From positions 764,236 through 828,235 of the forward strand of contig NZ_HG964497.1 of the NCBI RefSeq assembly GCF_000613125.1: DNA of 64,000 nt, read 5' to 3'. Made by a program: the position numbers and the translations under genes. Below, in pieces: positions 16,319-60,512 of this stretch. The stretch comes from Bacillus sp. EB01. Lineage in GTDB: Bacteria; Bacillota; Bacilli; Bacillales; Cytobacillaceae. The notes under the pieces are model-generated. The model searched no databases. It was not told the origin of the DNA and worked only from the letters and a program-made list of their open reading frames with translations. The first letter of the stretch is position 1. Every line of letters starts with the position of its first letter.

Positions 16319-16572
16319 CACCCATTTCAAGGACATTTCCCAGATGCAAAATGTACTCGAAAGTCTATTTCAAGGACATTTCCCTATCCAGGCAGGTACA
16401 AAATGTACTCGAAATTCTTTTTCAAGGACATTTTACCTGTCCGGCGGCACCGAAATGTACTCGAAACCCCATTTCAAGGACATTTCATCTGTCGTGCTGC
16501 ATCGAAATGTACTCGAAATTCTCTTTCAAGGATATTTCGATATCCGGGGTGAACCAAATTGTACTCCAAATA
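16319..16572 (+). repeat. 52-bp-period dyad repeats, family A, cluster 1
   Basis: Five imperfect tandem copies. AATGTACTCGAAA (or a close variant) begins at 16349, 16402, 16454, 16506 and 16557, spacings of 53, 52, 52 and 51. Each is followed after about six bases by TTTCAAGGACATT, which is the near-complement of the first arm (11 of 13), so every unit can fold into a hairpin. The same family recurs at 50.2 kb and, inverted, at 56.1-56.3 kb. It fills most of the gap between guaD and hmp. Confidence 0.9.
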
Positions 16573-16753
16573 TACTTTTTCTAAAAAAGCGCCTTAATAT
16601 GAGGAAGGATCCTGACAGGCAAAGGGCACCTGTACCAAGCAATTAATAGCTGCCCTTAGTAAAATCACAAAAAGCTTAGTTTAATTTATGTAGCCTGAAA
16701 TAGTAAAGCAAGTCAAAGAAGCAAATGAGTAAAATTATTTAAATATATCAATC

Positions 16754-16803
16754 TGTGATCTAAATCACTGCCTTAAAGTGAATTTTTATATATTATCACT
16801 ATG
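16754..16803 (+). promoter_or_regulatory. FNR-type site and promoter of hmp
   Basis: TGTGATCTAAATCACT at 16754-16769 matches the Fnr/Crp half-site pattern TGTGA-N6-TCACA. A -10 like TATTAT lies at 16791-16796, placing the site near -41.5, the class II activation position. Family knowledge: hmp genes in Bacilli respond to oxygen limitation and nitrosative stress. Direct Fnr control here is inference. Confidence 0.5.
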
Positions 16804-16839
16804 TGAATAGTAATAATTACTTAAAGGGGAGTGCTCGTT

Positions 16840-18048
16840 TTGTTAGACCAAAAAACGATTGAGATTATTAAATCCACAGTTCCTGTTCTTGAGGTCCATG
16901 GGGAAGCAATCACCACAAAATTTTATCAAATGATGTTTACAGATCACCCTGAATTACTGAATATTTTTAACCATGCTAACCAGAAACAAAACCGCCAGCA
17001 AAAGGCGCTTGCAGCTACAGTATATGCAGCGGCAAAATATATCGATAACCTGGAGGCCATCATCCCTGTTGTAAAGCAAATCGGCCATAAGCATAGAAGT
17101 CTTGGCATTAAACCAGAACATTATCCTATCGTAGGAAAATATCTATTACTGGCAATCAAGGATGTTTTAGGAGAAGCTGCTACCGATGAAATTATCAATG
17201 CATGGGCCGAAGCTTATGGAGTGATTGCAGATGCATTCATTAGCGTCGAAGCAGAAATGTATGATGAGGCATCCAGCCAAAAAGGCGGCTGGGCCGGTTT
17301 CCGGAATTTCATTGTGGAGCGCAAGGTGAAAGAAAGTGATGTTATTACTTCCTTCTATCTAAAACCACAGGATGGAAAAGACATCGCCTCCTACCAGGCG
17401 GGACAATATATCAGCGTCAAGCTCGAGATTGCTGGTGAAGAATTCACCCATATGCGCCAATACAGCCTTTCCGACTCGCCGGGAAAAGAATATTACCGAA
17501 TCAGTGTAAAGCGTGAGGCAGGGACCTCCAATCCAGATGGTATGGTGTCAAATTATCTTCATGAAACAGTCGAAGAAGGGGATATCCTTCCTATTAGTGC
17601 TCCGGCTGGCGACTTTGTCCTAAATACGGAAAAAGAGAACCCGGTCGTTTTGCTTAGCGGCGGTGTTGGTCTCACTCCAATGGTCAGTATGCTTAAAACC
17701 GTTTCGGAAGTTCAGCCTGAGAGAAACGTTACATTTATCCATGCGGCTCAAAATGGCAAATTGCATGCGCTAAGGAATGAGGTAGAAGCTTTATCTGAAA
17801 AGGAAAACATTAGATCATATGTTTTCTATGATTCACCAACCGAGGATGACAGAAACGAAAACAAGTTCGACGTAGAAGGCTATGTAACCCGTGAATGGCT
17901 GGAAAAGAATGTTCCTGTCAGCGAGGCAGACTTCTATTTCTGCGGACCTGTACCGTTTATGAGAGCAATCAATAGCGCTCTGAAGGAAATCGGTGTAAGT
18001 GACGACAGAATTCATTTCGAGTTTTTCGGGCCAAAAGGAAACTTGTGA
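16840..18048 (+). CDS. hmp: Flavohaemoglobin, nitric oxide dioxygenase
   Basis: 402 aa. The N-terminal globin domain (about 1-138) contains IIPVVKQIGHKHRSLGI with the proximal haem histidine. The FAD domain has MRQYSLSDSPG, and the NAD(P)H domain has VLLSGGVGLTPMVSML near residue 275. The C-terminus is FEFFGPKG. It oxidises NO to nitrate with O2 and NAD(P)H in the cytoplasm. An open frame begins at GTG 16831, but TTG 16840 (reading MLDQKTIEIIKS as in B. subtilis Hmp) has AAAGGGGAG at proper spacing. It is a single gene with its own terminator. Confidence 0.96.
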   Translation: MLDQKTIEIIKSTVPVLEVHGEAITTKFYQMMFTDHPELLNIFNHANQKQNRQQKALAATVYAAAKYIDNLEAIIPVVKQIGHKHRSLGIKPEHYPIVGKYLLLAIKDVLGEAATDEIINAWAEAYGVIADAFISVEAEMYDEASSQKGGWAGFRNFIVERKVKESDVITSFYLKPQDGKDIASYQAGQYISVKLEIAGEEFTHMRQYSLSDSPGKEYYRISVKREAGTSNPDGMVSNYLHETVEEGDILPISAPAGDFVLNTEKENPVVLLSGGVGLTPMVSMLKTVSEVQPERNVTFIHAAQNGKLHALRNEVEALSEKENIRSYVFYDSPTEDDRNENKFDVEGYVTREWLEKNVPVSEADFYFCGPVPFMRAINSALKEIGVSDDRIHFEFFGPKGNL

Positions 18049-18066
18049 GCGAGACATATACTTAGC

Positions 18067-18102
18067 AAAACGGTCCAGAGGTGATGTCCTCTGGACCGTT
18101 TT
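18067..18102 (+). terminator. Terminator of hmp
   Basis: 14-bp perfect stem AAAACGGTCCAGAG (18067-18080) with CTCTGGACCGTTTT (18089-18102). Confidence 0.88.
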
Positions 18103-18157
18103 AATTTTCATCTGCAAATTTTCCTCAAATAAATTTAGTGGGATAATTATAAACAAT

Positions 18158-18217
18158 TTATCCACAAGAAGTTATTTTGTGGATTAATTAACTCTCCAAA
18201 AAGATCAATTCTCCACA
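18158..18217. promoter_or_regulatory. Possible DnaA-box cluster
   Basis: Exact consensus TTATCCACA at 18158-18166, one-mismatch TAATCCACA on the minus strand at 18178-18186, and TTCTCCACA at 18209-18217, all within 60 bases between hmp and the small heptad ORF. Three boxes in one short intergenic space is more than expected by chance in AT-rich DNA, but small numbers make this a lead only. Confidence 0.4.
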
Positions 18218-18276
18218 AAAACCTGGTTAGGTTGTTGATAGGGGTACGTTAACGACCTAAACACGGAGGTAGCTAA

Positions 18277-18414
18277 ATGGATCAGGACAACTTTTTCAAT
18301 AATCAGGACAACTTTTCATATATACAGGACATTTCCCAAAAAATACAGGACATTTCCCAAACGATTCAGGACACATTTTTAGATATTCAGGACAAACCAG
18401 TCCTGCAGCAGTGA
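18277..18414 (+). CDS. Small heptad-repeat ORF (45 aa) in a 21-bp repeat array
   Basis: The ATG at 18277 follows GGAGGT at ideal spacing and opens a 45-codon frame ending TGA 18412-18414. The DNA is an imperfect 21-bp tandem repeat (CAGGACA recurring every 21 bases, six times). The peptide is therefore a run of seven-residue units with I-Q-D-I/T-S/F in register, for example YIQDISQ, KIQDISQ, TIQDTFL. Seven-residue periodicity with Ile fits a short amphipathic helix. It may be a real small protein, or a non-coding repeat that happens to be open; the ribosome binding site argues for translation. An imperfect inverted repeat (TTAGGT near 18226, complement before the ribosome binding site) precedes it. 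Confidence 0.5.
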   Translation: MDQDNFFNNQDNFSYIQDISQKIQDISQTIQDTFLDIQDKPVLQQ

Positions 18415-18491
18415 GGCGAATTACCTTAGAAAAAAATAGGGAAAGCAGCCAAACTGGGGTGAGTAGATAAATTGCCCCTGCTAACCCCTAT

Positions 18492-19376
18492 TCACTCCAG
18501 GCTTGCTGTTCCGCCAACTCCCTGCCTTAATTTATAAACGACAGACCCAATGGCTGCTGCCCACAGGATAGCAAGGCTTCCGTAAGTGAATAAACTGATT
18601 GTCTGAGATACATCTAGTGTCCCCAACAAAGTACGGATGTTGGTTAAAATGATGATTCCACCTACAAGAGTTCCCAAAAGGTTTGTCGGAATGATTTTCA
18701 CAAGCCAAGCCGCGATTGGTGCTGCAATCAAGCCGCCTATCATCAAGGCAATAACCCATTGAACGTTGATTTGTGACCAGCCAAGCGTCAAAAGAAAGCC
18801 GATCGTTGAAGAGACCGCAATCGCGAATTCGCTTGTATCAACAGAGCCAATAACTTTTCTCGGCTCCATCTTGCTGCTTGTCAGCAATACTGGAGTTGCG
18901 ATTGGACCCCAGCCTCCTCCGCCCGTTGCATCAAAAAAACCTGCAATAAAACCAAGCGGGACAAAGAACTTTTTGCCTTTCTTTTTAATAGAAGGTTGGT
19001 TTGTTGTGGAAAACTTAAACAGAAACCGGTAGATAACGAAAACACCTAACAGGAGAAGGAATACGGAAACATAAGGTTTTATTATATCGCCGGGGATGCT
19101 TCCCAGAAAAATTGCCCCGAGAAAAGCACCTATTGACCCAGGGATGATTAGTTTGTAAACAACTTGTTTATCGACATTTCCAAACCGGATATGCGATACA
19201 CCGGATGCCGCTGTTGTAACAACCTCTGCCATGTGCACAGAAGCGGATGCCACGGCGGGAGCAATTCCAAACATGAGCAGCAATGACGTTGAGGTAACCC
19301 CGTATGCCATGCCAAGGGAACCATCAACCAGCTGTGCTGCCAGGCCAATGAACGCAAGAATAATAAGCCTCCTCAA
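18492..19376 (-). CDS. TSUP-family exporter (TauE/SafE type)
   Basis: 294 aa with about eight membrane segments. It has the TSUP repeats LVDGSLGMAYGVTSTSLLL near the N-terminus and GFIAGFFDATGGGGWGPIAT in the middle, the two conserved motifs of TauE/SafE-like anion transporters. Members move sulfite, sulfoacetate, thiosulfate or related organosulfur anions. The TTG start at 19376 follows AAGGAGAG. It is divergent from an Rrf2 regulator gene (170 bases apart) and 1.6 kb from the sulfolactate cluster, so sulfite or sulfolactate export is an attractive inference. Confidence 0.88.
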   Translation of the reverse strand: MRRLIILAFIGLAAQLVDGSLGMAYGVTSTSLLLMFGIAPAVASASVHMAEVVTTAASGVSHIRFGNVDKQVVYKLIIPGSIGAFLGAIFLGSIPGDIIKPYVSVFLLLLGVFVIYRFLFKFSTTNQPSIKKKGKKFFVPLGFIAGFFDATGGGGWGPIATPVLLTSSKMEPRKVIGSVDTSEFAIAVSSTIGFLLTLGWSQINVQWVIALMIGGLIAAPIAAWLVKIIPTNLLGTLVGGIIILTNIRTLLGTLDVSQTISLFTYGSLAILWAAAIGSVVYKLRQGVGGTASLE

Positions 19377-19546
19377 TGATATCTCTCCTTTTTTATAAAA
19401 ATGCTGAATAGACTAGTTAGAAGCATTCTATATTGGTGATTGTTGACTAATCTAATCAAGTTTGTAACGTACAATATGTCGGGACAAAAATGAAGGTTCT
19501 TCGTTTGGGGAAGATTGGATGAATGCCTATATAAGGAGGGGGAGCG

Positions 19547-19969
19547 ATGAGGCTATCGAGCAGGGGAGAATATGCGCTGCGGGCACTTATTTGCCTCGGA
19601 AGTGACGAAAGCAGGCTAGTCCCGATCAGTGAAATAGCAGAGAAGACACTTGTCCCAATCAATTATTTGGAACAGCTGCTTCTGCAGCTGAAACGAAACG
19701 GCTACGTCCAAAGCAAGCGTGGAGTACACGGTGGATATAAACTTAGCAGAAGCGCGAATGATATTGTCATTGGTGAGGTGATTCGGAATCTGGAGGGTCC
19801 CCTGGCGCCAATGGGATGTGTCAGCATAACATCGTATGAGAGCTGTCCCCTGGAAGCTGGCTGTATGCTGAAGCCTTTATGGGCCCTAGTTAGAGATACA
19901 GTTGCACAGCTGCTCGATCATACAACCCTTAAGGATTTGCTGGATGGCAAGGTGTATAGCAGCCAATGA
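19547..19969 (+). CDS. Rrf2-family transcriptional regulator with three cysteines
   Basis: 140 aa. The N-terminal winged helix is typical (MRLSSRGEYALRALICL, then VPINYLEQLLLQLKRNGYV and the wing RGVHGGYKLSR). The C-terminal part holds Cys91, Cys100 and Cys106, the arrangement used by Rrf2 proteins such as IscR and NsrR to bind an Fe-S cluster, though the first spacing is longer than usual. It could sense NO, iron or sulfur status. The divergent TSUP exporter is the likely target. CymR of B. subtilis is also Rrf2 but lacks this triad. Confidence 0.88.
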   Translation: MRLSSRGEYALRALICLGSDESRLVPISEIAEKTLVPINYLEQLLLQLKRNGYVQSKRGVHGGYKLSRSANDIVIGEVIRNLEGPLAPMGCVSITSYESCPLEAGCMLKPLWALVRDTVAQLLDHTTLKDLLDGKVYSSQ

Positions 19970-19992
19970 ACTTTTTAGAGCAGTCCTCTTTC

Positions 19993-20017
19993 ATTGAAAA
20001 TGATTATCATTTACAAT
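19993..20017 (+). promoter_or_regulatory. Fur box upstream of hmoA
   Basis: A nearly perfect palindrome ATTGAAAATGATTATCATTT continuing to 20017. It contains the 7-1-7 Fur motif (TGAAAAT-G-ATTATCA type), 34-58 bases before the HmoA start. It predicts derepression under iron starvation. Confidence 0.85.
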
Positions 20018-20050
20018 GAGGATAGTCACTAAATGAATGGGGATGGTACA

Positions 20051-20374
20051 ATGTTTGTCCAAATGCGAAGAATGACCATTACAGAAGGAAATTCCGAAAA
20101 AGTAGTTGAACGTTTCAGCAAGCCCGGCATCATTGAGGAACAGGAAGGATTTGTAGACCTGACCATTATGGTAAAAAAGGTCCGCCGCGGTGAGGAAGAA
20201 GTCATCATCCAAATTCGCTGGGAATCCGAACAATACTGGAAACAGTGGGAAAAAAGCGATGCCCATATCGCCGGCCATAAAGCAAACCTTGGCAAGCCGA
20301 AGCCTGAGTATATCATCAGCTCTGAATCGGGATTGTATGAAGTTGCTGCTGTAAAAGGGCCAGCAACGAACTGA
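20051..20374 (+). CDS. hmoA: Heme-degrading monooxygenase, HmoA type
   Basis: About 107 aa of the antibiotic-biosynthesis monooxygenase (ABM) fold. It has RFSKPGIIEEQEGFVDLTIM, then IQIRWESEQYWKQWEKSDAH, matching the HmoA/IsdG pattern. The reaction is oxidative cleavage of haem to release iron. The start is taken as ATG 20051; an in-frame ATG six codons earlier overlaps the ribosome binding region. The Fur box directly upstream supports an iron-acquisition role. It is a single gene. Confidence 0.85.
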   Translation: MFVQMRRMTITEGNSEKVVERFSKPGIIEEQEGFVDLTIMVKKVRRGEEEVIIQIRWESEQYWKQWEKSDAHIAGHKANLGKPKPEYIISSESGLYEVAAVKGPATN

Positions 20375-20388
20375 ATAAGTGGATTGAT

Positions 20389-20427
20389 GTAATGCAAGCA
20401 GCCAATCACATTACGGTTTACTGCTTT
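20389..20427 (+). terminator. Probable terminator of hmoA
   Basis: GTAATG pairs with CATTAC, and an alternative AAGCAG pairs with CTGCTT before TTTTTTAA. The T-run is clear but the stem is ambiguous. Confidence 0.45.
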
Positions 20428-20477
20428 TTTAATTCAATGTTTGAATATAGAGGCAATAACGATTTTGCTTCCACTTC

Positions 20478-20640
20478 CATTGGCATCGTTTCAGTATTTG
20501 TTTCTTGTTGAAATGGTTCCAATAAACTCTATTGGAACCATTTCACCCTCTTTTCCTCCCCAAAATGAGTCCAATAAGCGCTATTGGCATCATTTCGCAT
20601 CCCCTTCCTGCCCAAAGTGTGTCCAATGATTCCGTATCAA
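20478..20640. repeat. 52-bp-period dyad repeats, family B, cluster 1
   Basis: The right arm TATTGGNNNCATTT or its equivalent begins at 20478 and 20530, and the left arm AAATG..CCAATA at 20511, 20563 and about 20614, a 52/51 spacing. The unit at 20510-20544 is a perfect 15-bp inverted repeat with a five-base loop. It occupies the gap of about 590 bases between hmoA and the VOC gene; the rest of that gap (20641-20968) shows only a few possible promoters and a short T-rich hairpin near 20930. Confidence 0.88.
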
Positions 20641-20968
20641 TTTGTTTGTCTGGCACTTTGTTTACTTGGAGGTTGTTCCGATGTTTAATGATGTGTCTGA
20701 AATATGAAATTCTCGAGTATGTGTTGTGAATCCTAGGAAATATTTAAAATATCTCGGATAAGTAGTAAAAGTACCGGATAAAACTAGTAAACAATTGTAA
20801 AAAATCATCCGGATTAACAGAATTGTTAAATGGGCCTCTGTCATCCGGAATTGCCAAAGAAGGATTCCTTGGACATAATTATAGGCCGATAAAGAAACAA
20901 GGAATTTACCACATAGGAAACGAAAAAAAACCGGTTCAGCACAAAAAAACTGAACCGGCCTTTCCCTA

Positions 20969-21367
20969 TTAATAAATCATACTATCATCGTGATAATACT
21001 TAAATTCTAGCAAATTGTTGGCAGGGTCAATCAGGAAGAAGGTGACATGTTCCTCCCGCTTGCCGGCAAACCGGACCATCAGCTCCTGGAAAAAGCGGAG
21101 CTCGTTTTTCTGTGCATGCTCGAGCGCCTGATCGAATTCGTCGCGATCGACAAACGTAATCCCAAAATGGCGCGGATACATTTTCGGGACAAGGTCGATT
21201 TTGTCTGGATTCAGATGGCAGACAACCTGGTCGCCGAAGAAGTCAAAGGTAACCCGGTCATGGTACCTTCTGCAAAGGCGGCAGCCAAGCTTTTCATAAA
21301 AATCAACTGTTTCATCGAGGTCCTTGCATGGAATCGCAAGGTGGAATACTTTATTCGTATCTCTCAT
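20969..21367 (-). CDS. VOC-family (glyoxalase-like) protein
   Basis: 132 aa, two beta-alpha-beta-beta-beta modules. It opens VFHLAIPCKDLDETVDFYEK, has RHFGITFVDRDEFD in the middle and ends DPANNLLEFKYY, giving the usual His/Glu metal ligands of VOC enzymes. The frame is open far upstream, but ATG 21367 has AAAGGAG ahead of it. It is the last gene of the comB-comA-VOC operon, so a lyase, isomerase or dioxygenase step linked to sulfolactate metabolism is possible. The exact reaction is unknown. Confidence 0.85.
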   Translation of the reverse strand: MRDTNKVFHLAIPCKDLDETVDFYEKLGCRLCRRYHDRVTFDFFGDQVVCHLNPDKIDLVPKMYPRHFGITFVDRDEFDQALEHAQKNELRFFQELMVRFAGKREEHVTFFLIDPANNLLEFKYYHDDSMIY

Positions 21368-21380
21368 ATTGAAAACTCCT

Positions 21381-22139
21381 TTAGATGAAAAATGTGTCAG
21401 ACCGTAATCCGAGCCGCAGTGTTTCAAGGGCAATCGCGTCTGAGAATGGGATGTTGGCCAAATTGACATTTGAACCTGCAATCCGTATAAAAGAGGTTTG
21501 CATTTTTTTATTTGGTGCTTCAAAGATCACCCTATCCAGGGCAAGCCCCGATCCGATAATTTCTTCAATAATATCAAAGCGCATTTCCCCAGAAGCATGG
21601 CAGATACCACTCGTGCCGCTTTCCCTTGCTTCAGTGATAACCTTGCTGGCGCCTGCTTCGAAATCCTCATGGATGAAATCCAGCCATTCGGACGATTCAG
21701 CTGTGACACTGCTGTCTTTGCTGCCTACCTCACTGAAAACACAAAATTCCTTCGAAAAATCGGCAATATGACGGGCTTTTTCTTTATTGGAAATCGGCAG
21801 TGTTCCGTTGGAGATTTCAATGTATTTGCAATCGTATCTTTTACAATAGGAATAATAATCGTCCAGTTTGCTTTGGCTAAGAAATTTTTCGAAAAGAGTC
21901 CCGCCAAAGAAATAGTCGATGCCATTTTCCTTAAGACAGAAAATTTTTTCTCCGAGACTCGATGTAACAACCGATGTACCCCAGCCAAACTTAACAAAAT
22001 CAACAAAGCTGGCGGAGGACTTAATGGTATCCTTAAAAACAGCCTCGGGAATGCCGTTGTCAATCAATATCGTCAGACCTTTAACCCTCGGTTTTCTTTC
22101 CCGGGCGGGCAGGTCCAATCCAGTGTAATTCATGCTCAT
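21381..22139 (-). CDS. comA: Phosphosulfolactate synthase (ComA/YitD type)
   Basis: 252 aa. Conserved blocks include SFVDFVKFGWGTSVVTS, YIEISNGTLPISNKEK, KVITEARESGTSGIC and NLANIPFSDAIALETLRLGL, the ComA/YitD family pattern. The enzyme adds sulfite to phosphoenolpyruvate to give 2-phospho-3-sulfolactate. In methanogens this begins coenzyme M synthesis; in B. subtilis the homologue YitD is linked to spore sulfolactate. ATG 22139 follows GAGGGTGA and overlaps comB by 59 bases. It sits beside the sulfate-reduction genes that would supply sulfite. Confidence 0.93.
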   Translation of the reverse strand: MSMNYTGLDLPARERKPRVKGLTILIDNGIPEAVFKDTIKSSASFVDFVKFGWGTSVVTSSLGEKIFCLKENGIDYFFGGTLFEKFLSQSKLDDYYSYCKRYDCKYIEISNGTLPISNKEKARHIADFSKEFCVFSEVGSKDSSVTAESSEWLDFIHEDFEAGASKVITEARESGTSGICHASGEMRFDIIEEIIGSGLALDRVIFEAPNKKMQTSFIRIAGSNVNLANIPFSDAIALETLRLGLRSDTFFI

Positions 22140-22818: not shown

Positions 22819-22849
22819 TTGTGGACTCCTATCCCTTAAATCTCTTCAA

Positions 22850-22876
22850 AAGTATATGCCCAGATTGAAAATGCGT
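22850..22876 (-). promoter_or_regulatory. Possible mother-cell sigma (SigK-like) promoter of comB
   Basis: On the minus strand AC (22876-22875), then 16 bases, then CATATACTT (22858-22850), close to the SigK pattern AC-N16-CATANNNTA, about 32 bases before the comB start. Short motifs like this are weak on their own. It is consistent with sulfolactate being a spore product in B. subtilis. Confidence 0.3.
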
Positions 22877-23006
22877 ACCTAATCCATTTCATTTTTTGAA
22901 ATAGGCTTTTACCAGCAAGAACCTTTTTTATGAAAATTGAATAACCTGTACGTAGGTTTTTACCTAGTTGGGTGCCCCGGCACATGAAGATAGCGAGGGG
23001 ATGGAG

Positions 23007-23729: not shown

Positions 23730-23771
23730 CGGTCTATAAAAGCTGACACGACTATGTTAGGAGGAAGTGAC

Positions 23772-44884: not shown

Positions 44885-45035
44885 TTTTATTGGGCACATT
44901 TTAAGGGTATTTTTTTGTTGAAACGCCACCAATATGGCTTATTGGCGACATTTCCAGATGATTTTTTCGGCAAAATGTGTCCAATAGAGCTTATTGGGCA
45001 CATTTTGAGGATAAAGAAGCGGTGAAATGATTCCA
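44885..45035. repeat. 52-bp-period dyad repeats, family B, cluster 2
   Basis: Left arms of the AAATG-CCAATA type begin at 44921, 44973 and 45025, exactly 52 apart. The 44972-45006 unit pairs AAAATGTGTCCAATA with TATTGGGCACATTTT around a five-base loop. A half unit (TTATTGGGCACATTTT) precedes at 44888. It fills the gap between the FAD dehydrogenase and NERD genes. Confidence 0.88.
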
Positions 45036-45067
45036 ATAGAAGAACTTACCGTGAAGAATTATTGAAA

Positions 45068-45970
45068 CTACTTATAGTAGGACCACCGACTATTCCAGAT
45101 TAATGTATAGTTTTTTTCTAAGACTCTCTTTATCCTATTTTCAGGAATAACATGGCACCAATTATTGATAAGAGGTGTTGATATTTTTATATCTGGAAAC
45201 AACAACTGCACCTCTTTCACATTCCGCATGATAGACCCTGGAACATCTTCCTCATGCCCGCACCTCAAACATATTAATTTATGCCCTGCGACGATGATGT
45301 CAAAGGAGTCGCATGCAGCACAGGTTGATCCTTTTTTGAGGTTGTCATACTTATAATCAGGCAGTTTGGTAAATTCATTTTTTTCCTGATGCAGGGATTT
45401 TAATTTGTCCGCAACGGACCAGTGGTAGGGGGTAATGCTTGAGGGAAGCTTGTTTAATTGGTCTTGTAAACGAGTTAATTGGCTTGGGTAGATGATTGGC
45501 TGGTTGAGTGGGGCGTTGTACATCATGAATGCAGGGTTAACGAACACGACTGAGGCGTCGATAGGCAGGTTGCAGTTTAATTCCTTCAGTAGTTGGCGAT
45601 AGGAGCTTTCTATCCGCATCAATTGGAGCAGCGGATTATTTTTCTCCGTTCCGTCCCGCATGAGAAATTTTTCTTCATTGAGGTAATAGTCTCCTTCAAA
45701 GTTTTTTACTTCGTAGAATTTAAGTGTTTTTCCAAAAATGATAGTGGTGTCGACTTGTATGGTAGTATTGTTTACTTTGAAATTTAAATCATTTAAAACG
45801 ATGCACTGGCTTTGTAGTTCCGAGGTAAAGTTGTCAAACTGGGTTTCGCCCTCGAACCCCTTTTTTAGTCTGTATAGCCGCCGTTGGTCCTGTTCTGGCA
45901 AGGTCATGCGCTTGTCCAAACATTCGAGGGTAAGCAACTCTTCAGATTTAGTTCTGGCTTTGTACAGCAT
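45068..45970 (-). CDS. NERD-domain (nuclease-related) protein
   Basis: About 300 aa. The NERD domain (about 35-150) has GFEGETQFDNF and later TLKFYEVKNFEGDYYL, with the acidic and KNxxG-like residues of the family, which is related to restriction-type nucleases. The C-terminal part has a zinc ribbon: CAACDSF then CLRCGHE. Start ATG 45970 is preferred to one three codons earlier because AAGGA lies eight bases ahead. NERD proteins often have no assigned role; nucleic-acid binding or cleavage is likely. It is divergent from the HTH/RNase H-like gene. Confidence 0.83.
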   Translation of the reverse strand: MLYKARTKSEELLTLECLDKRMTLPEQDQRRLYRLKKGFEGETQFDNFTSELQSQCIVLNDLNFKVNNTTIQVDTTIIFGKTLKFYEVKNFEGDYYLNEEKFLMRDGTEKNNPLLQLMRIESSYRQLLKELNCNLPIDASVVFVNPAFMMYNAPLNQPIIYPSQLTRLQDQLNKLPSSITPYHWSVADKLKSLHQEKNEFTKLPDYKYDNLKKGSTCAACDSFDIIVAGHKLICLRCGHEEDVPGSIMRNVKEVQLLFPDIKISTPLINNWCHVIPENRIKRVLEKNYTLIWNSRWSYYK

Positions 45971-46170
45971 AGGCCACATCCTTCTACTATTTTGTAAAAA
46001 TTGGGTCTCTTTTATTATACTTCATCTAAGTTTCGCCGCATATTTAAAAAGGGTTTTATTGTATGGCTCTTCGGCAAACCGGCTTATAGCATATTTAAAG
46101 TAAAAAAGGTACTCGCTTTACCCAAACTTTGGTAGAATTTTAGTAGAAAAACAAGGATGCAGGTGACATA

Positions 46171-50006: not shown

Positions 50007-50152
50007 AACTCTACCTCCTTGTATGAATTCACTCACCTATACCCCTCTTTTTACGGGAGTATGTTACTTTTTTTTTGAAAAAATCGGTCGATACTTTCTA
50101 GAGTGAGCCTAATGACGGGAAGTTAACCTATACACCTAGGTCTACCTTCCTG

Positions 50153-50306
50153 AACACTTTTCAAGGACATATCACTATTCCGGCAGTTTCAAAATGTACT
50201 CGAAAACCCATTTCAAGGACATTTCGCCTTTCCGGCAGCTTCAAAATGTACTCGAAACCAAGTTTCAAGGACATTTCACCATTCCGGCAGCTTCAAAATG
50301 TACTAG
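50153..50306 (+). repeat. 52-bp-period dyad repeats, family A, cluster 2
   Basis: AATGTACTCGAAA-type arms begin at 50193, 50245 and 50297, exactly 52 apart, each paired with TTTCAAGGACATT-type arms and joined by CCGGCAG linkers. Same family and orientation as at 16.3 kb. With flanking AT-rich DNA it fills the gap between the alcohol dehydrogenase and the sigma-gene remnant. Confidence 0.9.
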
Positions 50307-50353
50307 ACAGACAAGGACTCAACAAACCAATTTAGATTCGAATAAATTTTTCC

Positions 50354-52298: not shown

Positions 52299-52311
52299 GT
52301 CGTAGTACGAC
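52299..52311. promoter_or_regulatory. Candidate PadR operator
   Basis: Perfect 13-base dyad GTCGTAGTACGAC between the padR gene and the divergent VTT-domain gene, about 50 bases upstream of padR. Confidence 0.45.
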
Positions 52312-53059: not shown

Positions 53060-53218
53060 AGCTGATGTAGGTGAATGATTTAAAAAACGCGTCTTGTAGC
53101 CGAGAAGTGGTTATTCATAAAAGACATCGGCGACATTTCAGGTTCGGCAAATCGAAGCAGGTAGAGTCAATAGCGGTTCTGGACGACTTATAGGAACCAT
53201 TCACCCTTCACAGCCATG

Positions 53219-53490
53219 TGATGTGCCCAACGATTTGTTTTGGTAACATTTCTAGTTCTTCGGCAAGGCAAAATGTAGCCAATAGGCTGTATTGGAATCA
53301 TTTCTAGCTTTTTAGCAAGGCAAAATGTAGCCAATAGGCTGTATTGGAATCATTTCTAGCTCTTCAGCAAGGCAAAATGTAGCCAATAAGCTTTATTGGA
53401 ATCATTTTATCCTTTGCAGCAGGGCAAAATGTGCCCAATGTATTGCACGTTGATCAGTAAATGTGTAACCAATAAACGCTGGTTACATTT
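53219..53490. repeat. 52-bp-period dyad repeats, family B, cluster 3
   Basis: Left arms begin at 53219, 53271, 53323, 53375 and 53427, an unbroken 52-base lattice. A further unit begins at 53459 (32 bases on) and pairs TGTAACCA with TGGTTACA. Linkers carry TCTAGCTCTTCAGCAAGG-like sequence. The 665-base gap between the VTT and msrAB genes contains no gene. Confidence 0.9.
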
Positions 53491-53724
53491 TTTCAACCAG
53501 GAGTTTGTTAGTAGTGACATTTCACGTTTGCCAGGAGCTCAAAATATCATTCATACTAGCGGTGAGTGACAAAGCTGGTATTTGATGATTGAAGTATGTT
53601 TTCATTATGAAAAAGAATGTTTCGCAGAGAGTAAAGTGAATGCGCTGAATTGGTGGCGTAGGATTCTGGATAAGGGTGAGCGCATGGAGCGTCGACCAAT
53701 TTTTCACAAAAGGAGTGGTTGGAG

Positions 53725-54672: not shown

Positions 54673-54684
54673 TTTTATTATCTT

Positions 54685-54708
54685 AGGGGCAGCTGATGCC
54701 CCTTTTTC
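54685..54708 (+). terminator. Terminator of msrAB
   Basis: AGGGGCA pairs with TGCCCCT, followed by TTTTTC. Confidence 0.8.
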
Positions 54709-54761
54709 ACGTGTTGTAAATTGGGTATACTACAGTGAGAACTCGTTTTGGAGGAATGTAC

Positions 54762-55580
54762 ATGCATAACATTCAGAATATCAATGAAGCCAGAGATGCT
54801 ATTTTTGAAAAAACAAATCACCATCCTGTGATTGGGCTGATTCTTGGCTCCGGCCTTGGTGCGCTTGCTGATGAGATTGAAGACGCGGTCCATATTCCGT
54901 ATGGTGAAATTCCGTATTTCGCAAAATCCGAGGCGATTGGCCATGCGAATGAGCTGGTCATTGGGCAGTTGAAGGGCAAGACGGTTGTAGCGATGAAAGG
55001 CCGTTTTCATTATTACGAAGGGTATTCGCTCAGTGAAGTGACGTTCCCGGTGCGCGTGCTGAAGGCGCTTGGTGTTGAAACATTGCTGATCACGAATGCC
55101 TGCGGTTCGGTAAATACGAATTATGCGCCTGGCGACTTGATGCTGATTACTGATCATCTCAACCTTGTTGGCTCGAATCCGCTGATCGGACCGAATAACG
55201 ATGAGCTTGGGACCCGGTTCCCAGATCTTACCCAGGCTTATAATCGCGAGCTGCGCGCGCTTGCCCATAAGGTCGCAGAAGAAAAGGGTATGACGCTTCG
55301 TGAAGGTGTGTATGCTTGGTGGAGCGGCCCGATGTACGAAACACCGGCTGAAATCCGGATGATCCGCACGCTTGGGGCCGATGCTGTCGGGATGTCGACG
55401 GTACCTGAGGTTGTTGTTGCGGTTCATGGCGGCATGAAGGTACTAGGCATTTCGTGTCTGACGAACATGGCAGCAGGCGTTCTCGACCAGCCGCTGAACC
55501 ATGATGAAGTAATTGAAGTTGCCGGCAAAGTCCGCGCCAACTTCGTGGAACTTGTAAAAGGTGTAATTGAACAAGCGTAA
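54762..55580 (+). CDS. punA: Purine nucleoside phosphorylase (PNP-I, PunA type)
   Basis: 272 aa. LILGSGLGALADEIE and MKGRFHYYEGYSLSEVT are phosphate and ribose motifs, and MYETPAEIRMIRTLGADAVG with VGMSTVPEVVVA mark the trimeric PNP family. It phosphorolyses inosine and guanosine to the base and ribose-1-phosphate. ATG 54762 follows GGAGGA. It is a single gene with its own terminator. Confidence 0.93.
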   Translation: MHNIQNINEARDAIFEKTNHHPVIGLILGSGLGALADEIEDAVHIPYGEIPYFAKSEAIGHANELVIGQLKGKTVVAMKGRFHYYEGYSLSEVTFPVRVLKALGVETLLITNACGSVNTNYAPGDLMLITDHLNLVGSNPLIGPNNDELGTRFPDLTQAYNRELRALAHKVAEEKGMTLREGVYAWWSGPMYETPAEIRMIRTLGADAVGMSTVPEVVVAVHGGMKVLGISCLTNMAAGVLDQPLNHDEVIEVAGKVRANFVELVKGVIEQA

Positions 55581-55592
55581 GTTTGCAGTAGT

Positions 55593-55630
55593 GCCCGAGG
55601 CCCAAATATTGAGGCTTCGGGCTTTTTTTT
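55593..55630 (+). terminator. Terminator of punA
   Basis: GCCCGAGGCC pairs imperfectly with GGCTTCGGGC, followed by TTTTTTTT. Confidence 0.85.
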
Positions 55631-55724
55631 GTTCGGATTTATTTTCAAGGGAATGGGATAAATAGTAAAATAAGGGTGATGAGGGCGATGTGTTTTTTGT
55701 AAAGGGAAAGGGGTTGCATGGATC

Positions 55725-56051
55725 ATGAAGATAGTCCGATTTGTTGTACTGACAGCACAGATGATTTCAGTTTTAACGGCAATCAGCTACTTTTTATCAG
55801 CGAAATTTGGATTAACCATGATTAATGCGATGTTTTATGTTGGTGTGTTTGCTGTGTTTTTCTCACTTTATTTCTCCAGCAGCGGCGGGCTGACTGAGAA
55901 TTTTGCCGAGGCGGAGACTGCCACGAGTTACCAAGGTTTGAAGTCTGGGCATTCTTTTAAAAGAACTTTTCTGTCATTAAACGTAAACTTTGTGAATCTG
56001 GGATCTGTATTATTTTTAATCATAATTTTCTTTAGTGCGTTTATGTTTTAA
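55725..56051 (+). CDS. DUF3899 small membrane protein
   Basis: 108 aa, three hydrophobic segments, with a polar SGGLTENFAEAETATSYQGL loop. It matches the DUF3899 pattern, of unknown function. The ribosome binding site AAAGGGG is before ATG 55725. Confidence 0.65.
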   Translation: MKIVRFVVLTAQMISVLTAISYFLSAKFGLTMINAMFYVGVFAVFFSLYFSSSGGLTENFAEAETATSYQGLKSGHSFKRTFLSLNVNFVNLGSVLFLIIIFFSAFMF

Positions 56052-56067
56052 ACCAGCACAAGGCTTT

Positions 56068-56325
56068 CAAGGAAAATTTGATGATAGGGAAATGGTGAAA
56101 TGTCCTGAAAGTGGATTTCGAGTACATTTTGACGTTGCCAGAGAGGTGAAATGTCCTTGAAAGTGGATCTCGAGTACATTTTTGACGTTGCCGGATATGT
56201 GAAATGTCCTTGAAAGTGGATTTCGAGTACATTTTGAGTTGCCGGATAGGTGAAATGTCTTTGAAAGTGGATCTCGAGCACATTTTGACGTTGCCGGATA
56301 GGTGAAATGTCTTTGAAAGGTGGTG
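56068..56325 (-). repeat. 52-bp-period dyad repeats, family A, cluster 3 (inverted)
   Basis: Five copies on the minus strand: AAATGTCC/T arms at about 56101, 56152, 56205, 56256 and 56308 (51, 53, 51, 52), with TTTCGAGTACATT-type arms between. Orientation is opposite to the clusters at 16 and 50 kb. The 500-base gap 56052-56551 holds these repeats and some unassigned sequence. Confidence 0.9.
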
Positions 56326-56551
56326 CCTAAGTGGAGGGAATGTAAGTTGTCCTTGTCAAAGTGATCGGCGAATGATTGGAAAGCTTCTACCCGGGAAAAC
56401 CTTGACCCGTAGCAACCACAGAAATAGAAAAAAGTCCCCTTTGATTGATTAGGCAAAGGGAACCCCACCGTTTAACTTGGAAAAGAGACTGTTCGATTCG
56501 ACTATCTATGGTAAAAATACTGCCAGATGAACCAGCGCTTGAAAATCCTCC

Positions 56552-57103
56552 CTAATATTCAAGTGGCTCTTCGCCAAAGCGGTCCCATAGTGTTGGGTAC
56601 ATGTCTTCAAGATCGTCTTCGTCCCAATCCAGATCGATATCGTTTTGTGGCTTGAGTCCTTTATTGTCCAGTTCCGCCTGCAATTCGTCGTAGGTGCTGT
56701 CATTCCATTCAGTATCGCCCGTCTTTTTCAGGCTATAGGCATCCAGCCCGACGGAGAGTAGCTCCTCGTTCTGTGGCATGCCTTCCTCACCAAGATTATC
56801 TTCTTCAATATAATCAGCGAGGAATTCCGGGTCGGCCAGCACCTTTTTATATACTTCCTCGCCCTGGCCGATCAGCCAGCCTCGGAAATAGTCAAATGCA
56901 TCATCCGAACATCCACCCATGACAATATAGGCGGCTGCCCAAAGGCTGGATTGATAGCTTTCATTCATTAGCCCCTGAAACCAATATTCAAAATTGACGA
57001 TATCCCGGGTGTCGCGCTTGGCTAATACCTCTGTTAACCACTCGGCCTGATTTTCTTTTCCCTTGGACTTTTCAATCAATCCCCAAAACTCGTTTCGTTC
57101 CAT
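56552..57103 (-). CDS. DUF4240 domain protein
   Basis: 183 aa, acidic. It has DIVNFEYWFQGLMNESYQSS and SDDAFDYFRGWLIGQGEEVY, the DUF4240 pattern. The function is unknown; members often occur near toxin or immunity loci, but no such genes are seen here. ATG 57103 after AGGGAGGG. Confidence 0.8.
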   Translation of the reverse strand: MERNEFWGLIEKSKGKENQAEWLTEVLAKRDTRDIVNFEYWFQGLMNESYQSSLWAAAYIVMGGCSDDAFDYFRGWLIGQGEEVYKKVLADPEFLADYIEEDNLGEEGMPQNEELLSVGLDAYSLKKTGDTEWNDSTYDELQAELDNKGLKPQNDIDLDWDEDDLEDMYPTLWDRFGEEPLEY

Positions 57104-57270
57104 CAAAAACCCTCCCTATAAGCTGTTATTTATCAAATTCTACAACACTGCAAAATTTCCTTTTTCGATGTCATATTTCAGTGAGGGATTCGTCAAATAG
57201 AAAACGGCCTAACCTCAGCACAATGGGTGGATAGGCCACGCAATCGGCCATATAGCAGGGAGGGGAAAAG

Positions 57271-57645
57271 ATGAGGAATTTACTAATCATTGCAATGGTG
57301 TTGGTGTTGGCAGGATGCAAGTTGTTCGCCGGCCAGGTGGTAAGCAAACATGGCAAATACGAAAACCTCCAGGCTCTGGACGAGTTCGCCCTGGATGTGG
57401 AAAAAGGCCGTGATGCAGAGCTTCGGTTTGTTGAGTATGGAATTGAAGGCCAGCGGGGTGTACGCGAGCTTGAATACAATGAAGATAGCGGCATCATTGT
57501 TAATTACAGCGTTGATGGAGAGTAAATAAGCACGTATACATGCCAAGGTTTTATAATAAAAAAGGATGACTTTGCCAAACGGTATATTCTTACAGATTGT
57601 TCCGAAAGAGGGGACGAAGAGCTGCTTGTTCTGTACGCAAAATAA
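57271..57645 (+). pseudogene. DUF4362-type lipoprotein gene with an in-frame stop
   Basis: ATG 57271 after GGGAGGGG opens a frame with lipobox LVLAGC (Cys16) and an extracellular domain. The frame is interrupted by a single TAA at 57523-57525, then continues in the same phase (STYTCQGFIIKKDDFAKRYI, then LTDCSERGDEELLVLYAK) to TAA 57643-57645. The second half is needed for the DUF4362 fold and has the paired cysteines. So a nonsense mutation, or a sequencing error, cut the gene. It may also make an 84-aa short form. Confidence 0.7.
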
Positions 57646-57880
57646 CAGCTGACCAGGATTGTGTAAGCTGCCTGAAACGAAGCCGGAAACGATCAATCAC
57701 CGGGAATATTAAATCAAAATCAGCTTCCGCCTCGATAAAAAACGCCCCCCTTTGCCTGCGAAAGTAGTAATATAGTAGTAACAACAAGGGGAAATAATTT
57801 TTATGGCAAGGGAGAAGCGTACAGCTTTTCGTCTGCCGCGGCAGACTGCTTTGCCTAAAAATAAAAAGGGGGAGTTTTTC

Positions 57881-58153
57881 ATGATAGTGAAGGTGTTTGC
57901 GAATCTCCGCGATATTTGCGGGGGCTTCACGGTTGAGGTGCAGCCTGAGGGGAACCGGGTTATTGATGTTCTCGAAAAGATGGTGGAGATGTTCCCGCCG
58001 ATTGAAGAGGAAATTTTTACAGCGGAACGGACCTTGAAGGATTTTGTCCATGTGTACATAAACGGCCGGAATATTGTCCATCTGCAGGACCTGCAAACAG
58101 AAGTCAGCGACTCGGACCAATTTGCGTTGTTCCCGCCAGTTGCGGGTGGCTGA
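57881..58153 (+). CDS. moaD: MoaD/ThiS-family sulfur carrier protein
   Basis: 90 aa, beta-grasp fold, ending in the diglycine FPPVAGG that is adenylated and thiocarboxylated. It carries sulfur for molybdopterin or tungstopterin. ATG 57881 has AAGGGGGAG; the longer open frame upstream is unlikely. It is followed in an operon by a 90-aa protein of unknown role. A ThiF/MoeB activator and an aldehyde ferredoxin oxidoreductase lie 3-6 kb away, so it probably serves that tungsten enzyme. Confidence 0.85.
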   Translation: MIVKVFANLRDICGGFTVEVQPEGNRVIDVLEKMVEMFPPIEEEIFTAERTLKDFVHVYINGRNIVHLQDLQTEVSDSDQFALFPPVAGG

Positions 58154-58154
58154 T

Positions 58155-58427
58155 ATGAAAGAAGCCGTACTGGAATTCCGGGGAATCAACGTTGCGCATC
58201 TTGGCATGTACTTCGAGGAACTCGGAGCAGTCCGGAAAACGCACTCAATGCCGCTTCTGTATGAGACATCCAGCTGGAGCGCAGAAATCCTCAAAGAAGA
58301 GGAACTTAGTTTTACAAAAATATTCAAAGTGAATGCTGTACATATCTGTTTTCGGGCTGAAACGGAAACCGCGCTCGCCCAGCTGATAAAAAACTACCGC
58401 TACAAAACGACGCGGATTGGCGGGTAA
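58155..58427 (+). CDS. Hypothetical protein next to MoaD
   Basis: 90 aa starting MKEAVLEFRGINVAHLGMYF. It has two possible beta-alpha modules and a HICFRAETETALAQL segment, with no recognised family. It starts one base after the moaD stop, so the two are cotranscribed. It may be a cofactor-maturation accessory. Confidence 0.6.
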   Translation: MKEAVLEFRGINVAHLGMYFEELGAVRKTHSMPLLYETSSWSAEILKEEELSFTKIFKVNAVHICFRAETETALAQLIKNYRYKTTRIGG

Positions 58428-58450
58428 TCCATGGGAGGAGAGAATCCATT

Positions 58451-58672
58451 GTGAAGCGTTTCCTTGTGGCATTGGGTGCATTAGTGTTAACGGCAGGCAT
58501 TCTATACGGGATTGGCTACACCTTTAAAATCCCCGTGCTCATGTGGAAGTATGAGTACAGAAGTCATTCAGATGGTTTTTTCCTGCAAACAGGTTCTGTC
58601 CTTCCCGTCTTAATTGGAGCCGCCGCGAGCTATGTGGGAGAGAAGGTATATATCCGCAGAAAACTTGGTTGA
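58451..58672 (+). CDS. Small membrane protein, unknown
   Basis: 73 aa with two hydrophobic segments and KVYIRRKLG at the end. GTG 58451 follows GGGAGGAG at ideal spacing. No family recognised. Confidence 0.6.
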   Translation: MKRFLVALGALVLTAGILYGIGYTFKIPVLMWKYEYRSHSDGFFLQTGSVLPVLIGAAASYVGEKVYIRRKLG

Positions 58673-58757
58673 AGGCAGCCAAGTTTTTCGCTTTTTCAGG
58701 GCCGTTGGGAAATGATAAGGTCAAATTGCTTTTTACGTAAAGGAAGGAATGATTTTT

Positions 58758-59651
58758 TTGAAAAAAGGCATCGGGATTCTATCCGTACTTCTTGCGGCCT
58801 CCCTCTACGGGGTTGTCAATACAATAGTGAAGCTAGCCTACGCGGATCAGTTCCAATATGCCGAGCTGACGGTCAGCCAGTACGTCTATGGGTCGCTTGG
58901 CCTGCTGATTCTCGTTCTTGTAACGAGGACATTCAGCAAGGTGTCGTTAAAGGATTTCGGCAAGCTTTTAGCAGTTGGGGCTATCGGTCTTGGCGGGACA
59001 AGCATGGCTTTATATGCGAGCCTCGCCTATGTGCCAACCTCCGTGTCACTCGTCATGCTGTTTCAGTTCACCTGGATTGGACTTTTGATTGAGCGGTTTG
59101 TTTTTAAAAGGAAAATCCGCCGCAATGAACTGCTTGCGGTTGCAATCATATTGGTTGGGACTCTGTTCGTTTTGCGGGTAACTTCGATTGATGCAGGGAC
59201 ACTTAATACAGCTGGCTTGGTTTACGGCTTCCTGGCTGCCGTTTGTTACTCGGTCTTCTTAACGGGTGCATCGGTACTGCCGGCTTCAATTCCGGAGTTT
59301 TATAAAAACTTCCTGATGATTGGCGGGACAACGGTTCTGCTGTTAATCGGCTTTGCAACAACAACACCGCCTGCCGACATGAATCCATTTGGCGATGTGC
59401 TTGGCTGGGGCATTCTGCTGGGGCTGCTGGCACAGATTATCCCGCCCGTGCTGTTTACGTATGGAGCACCGAAAATCGGCGGGACGCTTACATCCATCCT
59501 AAGTTCCGTTGAGCTCCCGGTCGGCATTATCCTGTCCTACTTGATTGTCGGGGAAGAAGTTGTCCTCGTCCAATGGTTCGGGATGCTGCTGATCCTCACT
59601 GGAATCGTCGTTTCACAACTGGGGACGTTCAAAACCGTGCAGGATGAATAA
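58758..59651 (+). CDS. EamA-family (DMT) transporter
   Basis: About 297 aa, ten membrane helices in two EamA repeats. The second repeat has GTLTSILSSVELPVGIILSY and LLILTGIVVSQLG. It is a drug/metabolite transporter; the substrate is unknown. AAAGGAAGG directly abuts an ATG at 58749, so TTG 58758 (nine bases on) is the better start. Confidence 0.85.
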   Translation: MKKGIGILSVLLAASLYGVVNTIVKLAYADQFQYAELTVSQYVYGSLGLLILVLVTRTFSKVSLKDFGKLLAVGAIGLGGTSMALYASLAYVPTSVSLVMLFQFTWIGLLIERFVFKRKIRRNELLAVAIILVGTLFVLRVTSIDAGTLNTAGLVYGFLAAVCYSVFLTGASVLPASIPEFYKNFLMIGGTTVLLLIGFATTTPPADMNPFGDVLGWGILLGLLAQIIPPVLFTYGAPKIGGTLTSILSSVELPVGIILSYLIVGEEVVLVQWFGMLLILTGIVVSQLGTFKTVQDE

Positions 59652-59680
59652 TGGCTCAGAGGAGGAGACCTTTGAGCCAT
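59652..59680. terminator. Hairpin between EamA and DinB genes
   Basis: TGGCTCAGAGG pairs with CCTTTGAGCCA between convergent genes; the T-run is weak. Confidence 0.5.
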
Positions 59681-59686
59681 TCGCCG

Positions 59687-60157
59687 TTATTCAAACAAAG
59701 AGATTTCAGGATCTTTTCCATAACAATAAACAAGCAGCGCGTGCAATTGCGCTCTGTGGTGATACACGTGCGCTAAAATTTCAAGCAGCCATTCATACCT
59801 CGTGTACGAGACCCCCCAATAGGAAGTGGTTTCTTGCTGAAGTTCATCATCGGTATAGTTTTTGTACCTTTCTTCTAGTGCTTTGAAATTAGCAAAAAGA
59901 GCAGCCTTAATGTCAATGAGGTTGCTGTATGGAATGCTTGCATAAAGGTGGCTCATTTCCTCCTGTGTGGCACCGTTTGAAATAGCCATATCCGCTCTGC
60001 AAATGGTTGCGAGGTGCCCGAGTAATTCCCCAACCGAAAATTTGTCTGGATGAGGCCGCTTTGGTAAATCGGATTCTTCCAGTTGGTCAATGATGGAAGC
60101 TGTTGTATAGATGGCAATTTCTATTTGATGCAGCGTGCTTTTGCAGTATGTATTCAA
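59687..60157 (-). CDS. DinB-family protein
   Basis: About 156 aa, four-helix DinB/YfiT type: TLHQIEIAIYTTASIIDQLE, SVGELLGHLATICRADM (a metal His) and EILAHVYHHRAQLHALL with the other histidines. The reaction is unknown; possibly a thiol transferase. The frame is open to 60286, but that part overlaps the repeat cluster. TTG 60157 has GAGGAGGA just ahead and is preferred. Confidence 0.83.
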   Translation of the reverse strand: MNTYCKSTLHQIEIAIYTTASIIDQLEESDLPKRPHPDKFSVGELLGHLATICRADMAISNGATQEEMSHLYASIPYSNLIDIKAALFANFKALEERYKNYTDDELQQETTSYWGVSYTRYEWLLEILAHVYHHRAQLHALLVYCYGKDPEISLFE

Positions 60158-60215
60158 TGTATCCTCCTCAAGATTCTGGCTCGTATTGTCCATGGCAAAA
60201 GCTGTGGCCACCAAT

Positions 60216-60512
60216 ATTATTTCAGAGACGTCAAGAACCTTTATTGACGACCGAAGCCCCCACTTTTTTACCTTCAGGGTCGTCAAGAAGCTCTATTGAC
60301 GACCGAAGCCTGCACTTTTTTACCTTCAGGGTCGTCAAGAAGCTCTATTGACGACCGAAGCCTGCACTTTTTACCTTCAGGGTCGTCAAGAAGCTCTATT
60401 GACGACCGAAGACTCTACTTTTTTACCTTCAGAGTCGTCAAGAAGCTCTATTGACGACCGAAGACTCTACTTTTTTACCTCCAGAGTCGTCAAGAACCTT
60501 TATTGACATCGT
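60216..60512. repeat. 52-bp-period dyad repeats, family C
   Basis: GACGACCGAAG begins at 60246, 60298, 60350, 60401 and 60453 (52, 52, 51, 52). Between units GTCGTCAA and TTGACGAC form one hairpin around AAGCTCT-like loops. Within units CCTG/CAGG in copies 2-3 is replaced by ACTCT/AGAGT in copies 4-5, a matched change on both sides. It lies between the DinB and esterase genes. No similarity to families A and B except the period. Confidence 0.9.

Follow-up and report, generated by a model that had tools for sequence, protein, structure and literature searches.

Here we describe arrays of short tandem repeats in a 64,000-nucleotide stretch of the Bacillus sp. EB01 genome (contig NZ_HG964497.1, positions 764,236 to 828,235; hereafter the window). 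The arrays share a 52-bp period, and their units are built of inverted half-sites and linkers of nearly constant length. Array ends cluster at dyad centers, hosts are patchily distributed within one genus, one repeat family stands in for another at the same place in relatives, and array orientation follows neither genes nor replication. The phenomenon is already known, and the EB01 genome is a rich further case of it. In appearance the arrays are closer to spreading mini-elements than to components of a chromosome scaffold. We tentatively favor the reading that they represent a non-autonomous mobile element copied by a putative trans-acting enzyme, over a role in the nucleoid or as RNA, though we put it at somewhat under even odds; the enzyme, the mobility, and the reason for the fixed length are what we infer.

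Seven arrays and a genome-wide 52-bp period

The EB01 genome is one contig of 5.28 Mb, and the G+C content of the window is 44%. Below, G000 denotes the window genome, G001 to G007 denote relatives of the same genus, and L-numbers denote sampled loci. A preliminary description of the window had claimed seven clusters of three repeat families (A, B, and C), lying between genes and in both orientations. We found all seven in their places; all are intergenic according to our own open reading frame (ORF) script, and both orientations occur among them. Family A arrays lie at 16335..16579 (minus strand, ∼4.3 copies of 52 bp, with a further degenerate unit starting at ∼16289), 50146..50318 (minus, ∼2.8 copies), and 56055..56332 (plus, ∼4.4 copies with spacings of 51 to 53). 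Family B arrays lie at 20504..20635 (minus, ∼2.2 copies plus a terminal half-site near 20479), 44885..45040 (plus, ∼2.4 copies), and 53221..53447 (minus, ∼3.9 copies). The single family C array, at 60208..60519 (minus, ∼5.5 copies), has a 65-bp overlap with an ORF whose called start codon is TTG.

Self-similarity within the window is highest at lag 52, with 568 comparison windows (40 bp, at least 70% identity), followed by lag 104 with 256. The preliminary description had placed all units on a 52-base lattice. This holds within arrays, where register spacings are 51 to 53 (43 for one weak partial copy in the first A array), but not across families, since the centers of neighboring B and A arrays at L070 are 56 bases apart. 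Gaps with mixed families, namely L065 9503-9943 (D and B), L053 9972-10578 (A and H), and L070 9213-9580 (B and A), do not follow one such lattice.

An autocorrelation of noncoding DNA, which had been proposed as a check, bears out the period beyond the window. In 106 kb sampled evenly from the genome, lags of 50, 51, 52, and 53 gave 61, 297, 582, and 25 comparison windows, with zero at lags 43 to 49 and 54 to 62; the same scan gave 92 at lag 42 and 52 at lag 37. Twenty evenly spaced 20-kb stretches of G000 contained 22 tandem arrays, with periods of 51-52 (10 arrays), 20-21 (six), 37 (three), and other values (three). The same 400 kb, resampled with a second-order Markov model, yielded four short arrays only, with periods of 17, 20, 21, and 28. 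Across 1.104 Mb from 53 sources, 65 of 112 arrays had a period of 51-53, in a sample enriched by the choice of 32 of these sources for matches to A, B, or C. Further families in G000 are D, F, and H, along with single arrays of others. BLAST searches of the whole genome with one array each returned 37 matches for A, 20 for B, and 15 for C. According to Tandem Repeats Finder (TRF), 20 of the 65 G000 arrays have at least 4.0 copies, and the remainder have 1.9 to 3.9.

Unit anatomy and array ends

The units do contain inverted repeats able to form hairpins, as had been described: folded as single-stranded DNA, the A, B, and C dyads beat dinucleotide shuffles with z scores of -3.0, -6.1, and -5.3. 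In all but one of the 80 arrays (65 from G000, 15 from G007 and G005), the best dyad scored above the average of 20 shuffles; the exception is L076 17036-17146, which is coding-like in appearance. Each unit follows the same plan of an arm of ∼14 bases, a loop, a second arm, and a linker. The loop measures 5 bases in A, B, D, and H, 7 in F, and 9 in C, and the linker 19 in A, B, and D, 20 in F, and 17 in H.

Linker sequence varies, and linker length is on its mode in ∼167 of 185 consecutive pairs and off it in ∼18 (for A, the count covers the 12 commonest combinations, 70 of 75 pairs, with one artefact excluded). Of the 257 units counted in A, B, D, F, and H, 45 have a loop of other than modal length, though the loop is 3 to 4 times shorter than the linker; this count admitted only one base either side of the mode. 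A 19-bp linker would be expected to gain more insertions and deletions than a 5-bp loop, so linker length is likely constrained. That the linker keeps its length while its sequence varies, and that the shorter loop changes length more often, is a point for the selection on geometry that the preliminary description had proposed.

The two half-sites of one dyad usually differ. The variable triplet of family B agrees between half-sites in only 2 of 78 dyads, and in family A a single combination (C..T against A..C) accounts for 46 of 100. Among the 80 F loci analyzed, 277 of 429 units are paired at the fifth dyad position, compared with 242 expected under independence. T.G and C.A are common there (137), so this pairing is not strict.

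Where do the arrays end? When arrays were aligned to a periodic family consensus, 102 of 138 ends lay nearer a dyad center than a linker center. These ends come from 69 of the 80 arrays, after exclusion of those with weak family assignment and of the mixed L070. Simulated arrays cut at random phase, aligned with the same first scores, placed 603 of 1,380 ends (44%) nearer a dyad center. Ends at dyad centers indicate that the natural element is half-site, linker, half-site, ∼47 bp in all, and their clustering there indicates that each element is bounded by inverted half-sites. The repeat is thus better cut at the dyad center, as an element with inverted ends.

Kinship of the families

To compare families, profiles were superimposed on their dyads, and columns were permuted in a way that kept the palindrome (2,000 permutations, 15 pairs). 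The similarities of A-B, B-C, and A-F exceed all 2,000 permutations. Other pairs are C-F (p = 0.0005), F-B (0.0025), D-H (0.004), A-C (0.014), D-A (0.0185), and A-H (0.022); the remaining six of the 15 pairs have no significant similarity under this permutation. The first five (A-B, B-C, A-F, C-F, and F-B) survive correction for 15 pairs. Repeats published from B. coagulans and B. litoralis also align with F, judged against a weaker null model in which the palindrome is not preserved.

Judged by these profiles, we count the homology of A, B, C, and F as shown. The preliminary description had called the three window families unrelated, a premise that fails because A-B and B-C are related, sharing sequence position by position, with A-C weaker. 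It had also named descent from one recent ancestral unit as an observation that would overturn its reading; A-B and B-C do show kinship, but the kinship is not recent.

The same places in relatives

Two relatives, G007 and G005, allow the window to be compared place by place; where aligned, identity to the window is mostly ∼93% for G007 and ∼80% for G005. At three places G007 has the same family as the window (A at 16.3, A at 56.1, and C at 60.2 kb). At 45.0 and 53.2 kb, where the window has B, it has an F array, and at 20.5 and 50.2 kb a 52-bp array was not found. In G005 the family is F at 20.5 and 53.2 kb and B at 45.0 and 60.2 kb (the array at 45 kb was recognized by eye), and no array was found at 16.3 and 56.1 kb. 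The 50.2-kb place is taken up in this genome by 9.7 kb of different sequence with a B array inside it. Six more places were compared beyond the window. There G007 shares the G000 arrays; in G005 one of the six showed a diverged A array, and at the other five no array was recognized.

Four of seven mappable G005 arrays fall in the window's seven places (p = 0.018 to 0.043, depending on the gap threshold). Nine G005 arrays were considered, and two were excluded, one beyond the window and one in the 9.7-kb stretch that the window lacks. This coincidence of places is suggestive only.

Arrays also change in place. By script, the number of dyads differs between G000 and G007 at 3 of 8 compared places, one of them doubtful, and alignment adds one more difference of one unit. 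The C array of G007 at 60.2 kb is interrupted by an insertion with a Mutator-type Transposase_mut gene (L044 8968-10149, 414.5 bits). The window gene at 45177-45993, which adjoins a place of family change, is 72.5% identical to G007 in surroundings of ∼93%, which suggests horizontal replacement.

Distribution among genomes

The repeats are patchy even within the genus. F and B repeats occur in three of eight same-genus genomes (G000, G005, and G007), and G001, G002, G003, G004, and G006 are without them. Matches to the F pattern on both strands number 57 in G000, 50 in G007, and 28 in G005, and matches to the B core number 45, 26, and 43, respectively; both counts are 0 in the other five congeners. 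The A dyad is narrower still: among 20 genomes it was found only in G000 (36 places) and G007 (21 places), which points to families arising and spreading within the genus.

In a wider scan, the F dyad at 52-bp spacing was found in 54 of 193 genomes of the bacterial family and in 9 of 25 genera, and a reversed control pattern was found in none of the 193. At least 117 F stretches were found in genome contigs; 80 loci were listed and analyzed, and we take the genera of these all to belong to Bacillales. Heyndrickxia coagulans 36D1 is one of the strains with F arrays. In the 80 loci, 313 of 356 spacings below 160 bases are exactly 52, partly by selection, as the pattern asked for 51-53. Mobile replicons gave little: one F array of G005 had no match in plasmids or phages, the A array at 16.3 kb and the C array had none in plasmids, the F dyad had none in viral contigs, and the B-core pattern had one match in viral contigs.

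Genomic context and orientation

According to our own ORF caller, 64 of 64 arrays are intergenic (the coding-like L076 17036-17146 was excluded beforehand), in 43 tandem, 15 convergent, and 6 divergent gene gaps. Array-free gaps of at least 250 bp number 152, 35, and 48, respectively. We saw no tendency of the arrays to align with genes or with replication. Tandem genes flank 37 well-assigned arrays, of which 18 run with the genes and 19 against them. Arrays co-directional with replication account for 12 of 22 places for A, 8 of 17 for B, and 9 of 15 for C, after repeated or weak rows were dropped (15 of 37 for A, 3 of 20 for B) and with an origin near 5.158 Mb inferred from a DnaA-sized match.

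The B array at 45.0 kb adjoins a Pfam-supported NERD-domain gene (45068-45979, minus strand). Genes that we read as NERD-like lie beside the array in 4 of the 80 F loci (L113, L123, L125, and L182), and this adjacency occurs in several species. The gene looked promising as an array partner, but each of 20 genomes searched, with arrays or without, has 4 to 14 NERD matches. NERD genes are common in all 20 genomes, so the adjacency may be chance.

Origin of the arrays

How might such arrays be built? In the mechanism we favor, they would be head-to-tail multimers of a ∼47-bp non-autonomous element, made up of a ∼14-bp half-site, a fixed-length linker (19 bp in A and B), and a second, inverted half-site. 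Neighboring elements would be joined by ∼5 bp (7 in F, 9 in C), and with so short a joint each joint would appear as a dyad every 52 bp. Most families would descend from one ancestral element. A trans-acting enzyme would recognize paired half-sites and copy or join elements, its action keeping half-site symmetry and length, and resident arrays would later decay and change in number by whole units. On this view, common descent plus a copying constraint would account for the shared period, not a chromosome-wide scaffold.

Fixed linker length together with ends at dyad centers suggests that half-sites are read in pairs by whatever step joins or copies the elements, and patchiness within the genus together with the lack of orientation bias argues against a chromosome-wide or transcript-level role. 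The preliminary description had offered two causes for the shared period. Nucleoid or looping geometry fits poorly with patchy hosts, family swaps, and the absence of orientation bias; a common copying mechanism fits better. It is tempting to go further and suppose that an undescribed Bacillales enzyme joins 47-bp elements head to tail at palindromic joints. The arrays would then be a DNA satellite built by recombination or transposition, with the 52-bp period as the footprint of the copying complex and the families as specificity variants of one ancestral site. We regard this more specific version as speculative and rather doubtful.

Several observations weigh against a copied mobile element. 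With laxer alignment scores, 88 of 138 array ends lie nearer a dyad center, and the simulation covers the first scores only. No target-site duplication was seen by eye at array ends, where a close pair of filled and empty sites was lacking: no two close strains were found to differ by a filled and a cleanly empty site, and G005 is too diverged for exact borders. Among 532 ORFs of the 80 F loci, no recurrent cognate gene or autonomous element was found; the ORF families that do recur there are, on our reading, ordinary ones such as ABC-type proteins and regulators. Finally, across eight places compared between G000 and G007, arms differ at 75 of 847 positions, loops at 32 of 165, linkers at 77 of 459, and flanks at 244 of 2,017, a comparison in which unit turnover mispairs units at some places. 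Arms thus diverge less than flanks, which could mean that they have a resident function.

The strong rival is that the arrays are inert satellites. One 52-bp ancestor would have multiplied by slippage or unequal crossing-over with no dedicated enzyme, the period would simply be inherited, and new sites would be seeded by rare illegitimate recombination or by horizontal transfer. We judge this account somewhat less likely than a copied element. It draws support from the homology of the families, from relatives that differ by whole repeat units, and from the divergent G007 region beside the exchanged array, which looks as it would after horizontal replacement. In addition, at four clean places, a choice made after seeing the data, divergence is much the same in arms (26 of 373) and in linkers (15 of 191). 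It does not sit well with linker length that is kept despite sequence change, with ends that cluster at dyad centers, or with family A at many dispersed sites within one lineage.

A second alternative returns to DNA geometry. Dimers of a nucleoid, looping, or insulating protein would bind the dyads, and 52 bp, about five helical turns, would keep them on one face of the DNA. The constant spacing of dyads, the lower overall divergence of arms than of linkers and flanks, and the intergenic position of every array in the context count are all in keeping with binding arrays. We nevertheless consider them improbable, as five of eight congeners do without such arrays, the family at one place may change or be lost, the two half-sites of a B dyad so rarely carry the same variable triplet, and the spacing breaks down where two families meet.

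A function in RNA seems less probable still. Following a proposal in PMC8161180, tandem hairpins would be transcribed to act as small RNAs or protein sponges. The hairpins are stable, and transcription of B. coagulans arrays is reported in PMC8161180 and PMC8625621. Mispairs, counted without C and D, which are out of register, give a mixed picture: G.T exceeds A.C in A (100 versus 55) and in the small family H (17 versus 8), but one fixed position supplies 61 of the 100 G.T pairs of A, and B and F lean the opposite way (61 versus 79 and 12 versus 32). Orientation, moreover, ignores neighboring genes, and no Rfam match was found at the window arrays with gathering thresholds, a SAM riboswitch elsewhere being the window's only match.

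It is very improbable that these are REP-like sequences moved by the RAYT-type (REP-associated tyrosine transposase) Y1 transposases of G000, which encodes at least four Y1 proteins of ∼190-200 amino acids, two of which, when tested, matched the NCBIfam model for such transposases below its cutoff (71.7 and 53.7 versus 80 bits), for TRF found an A, B, C, D, F, or H array at 0 of 20 Y1 loci, the 11 Y1 flanks printed out have ACTAGT-type, GGGGTCAGACCCC-type, or no such repeats, and array-free congeners have Y1 copies too.

Relation to published repeats and known systems

The preliminary description knew of no described system with this rule. The 52-nt rule has in fact been published: Subirana and Messeguer (2021; PMC8161180) surveyed 176 Bacillus genomes and found two size classes of noncoding repeats, 20-21 and 51-53 nt, whose length is constant but whose sequence varies; B. 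subtilis is listed there as lacking 52-nt repeats. Their repeats contain short signals, often with the reverse in the same repeat, and are only partly conserved between strains. The function was given as unknown, and a nucleoid protein or small RNAs were proposed. The EB01 arrays agree with that class in their constant 51-53 nt, noncoding location, several families per genome, signals with reverse complement, variation of unit number between relatives, and the company of 20-21-nt arrays. Unlike the published repeats, for which at least four repeats per array were required (PMC8161180), many EB01 arrays are shorter than four copies. New with respect to PMC8161180 are the homology of the families, the half-site/linker/half-site anatomy with ends at dyad centers, the change of family at the same place, and presence or absence within a genus. 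No paper explaining the 52-nt repeats was found in the literature searched, whose coverage mostly leaves out subscription journals. Subirana and Messeguer reportedly treated 52-nt Bacillus satellites in a further paper, in J. Bacteriol. in 2020.

Other known systems offer partial likenesses. Miniature inverted-repeat transposable elements (MITEs) and other non-autonomous insertion elements have inverted termini, a short interior, dispersed intergenic copies, and a short joint where ends abut. Unlike MITEs, the EB01 element is only ∼47 bp and nearly always occurs as tandem multimers, and an autonomous partner and target duplication were not found. Repetitive extragenic palindromic (REP) sequences are likewise chromosomal intergenic palindromes in families, but the repeats around the RAYT-like genes of this genus are of other kinds. 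CRISPR loci share the regular tandem layout and partly palindromic units. Unlike CRISPR loci, the arrays do not alternate an invariant repeat with unique spacers; variation affects arms as well as linkers, linkers are alike within an array, and there are tens of loci per genome. No cas families occurred among Pfam matches of the window flanking genes, which were scanned in part and without a genome-wide cas search.

A published puzzle, constant length in seemingly unrelated satellite sequences, is thereby made testable. A genus with three array-bearing and five array-free genomes permits a direct search for the gene responsible. Discovery of an enzyme would give the constant length a mechanical cause; should there be none, the length is a relic of common descent.

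Other repeats and candidates

Arrays of ∼21-bp period at window positions 18281-18400 and 63630-63732 fit the published 20-21-nt class. The first has a CAGGACA core, found too in the half-sites of family A. IS21 ends were considered as a source of shared GGACA/TGTCC cores but were not supported: strong IstB matches (>100 bits) are confined to G003 and G004, two genomes without F, B, or A repeats, and no tandem array of 18-24 bp was found at three IstAB loci examined. Weaker IstB matches in all eight genomes are, from their size, presumably DnaA- and DnaI-like proteins.

Y1_Tnp was sought in 14 genomes, and copies occur both with and without arrays in the genome. The four RAYT-like Y1 genes of G000 lie outside the window, at L233 3797-4372, L234 3779-4372, L235 3812-4372, and L236 3785-4369. 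They have repeats of their own, either ACTAGT-rich upstream repeats (among them a 130-bp array at L234 4616-5116) or, in the flanks, GGGGTCAGACCCC repeats.

A dispersed repeat of 37-bp period (TGTCCCTGCGATGATnATTC type) forms seven arrays in the 1.104 Mb, at L008 16101-16233, L071 4980-5104, L001, L014, L062, L073, and L074, twice directly beside a 21-bp unit. A separate dispersed repeat of ∼200 bp, at L058 17350-17555, has dozens of matches in G005 and G007. The window also carries an S-adenosylmethionine (SAM) riboswitch (RF00162, 98.9 bits) at 6422-6530 on the minus strand.

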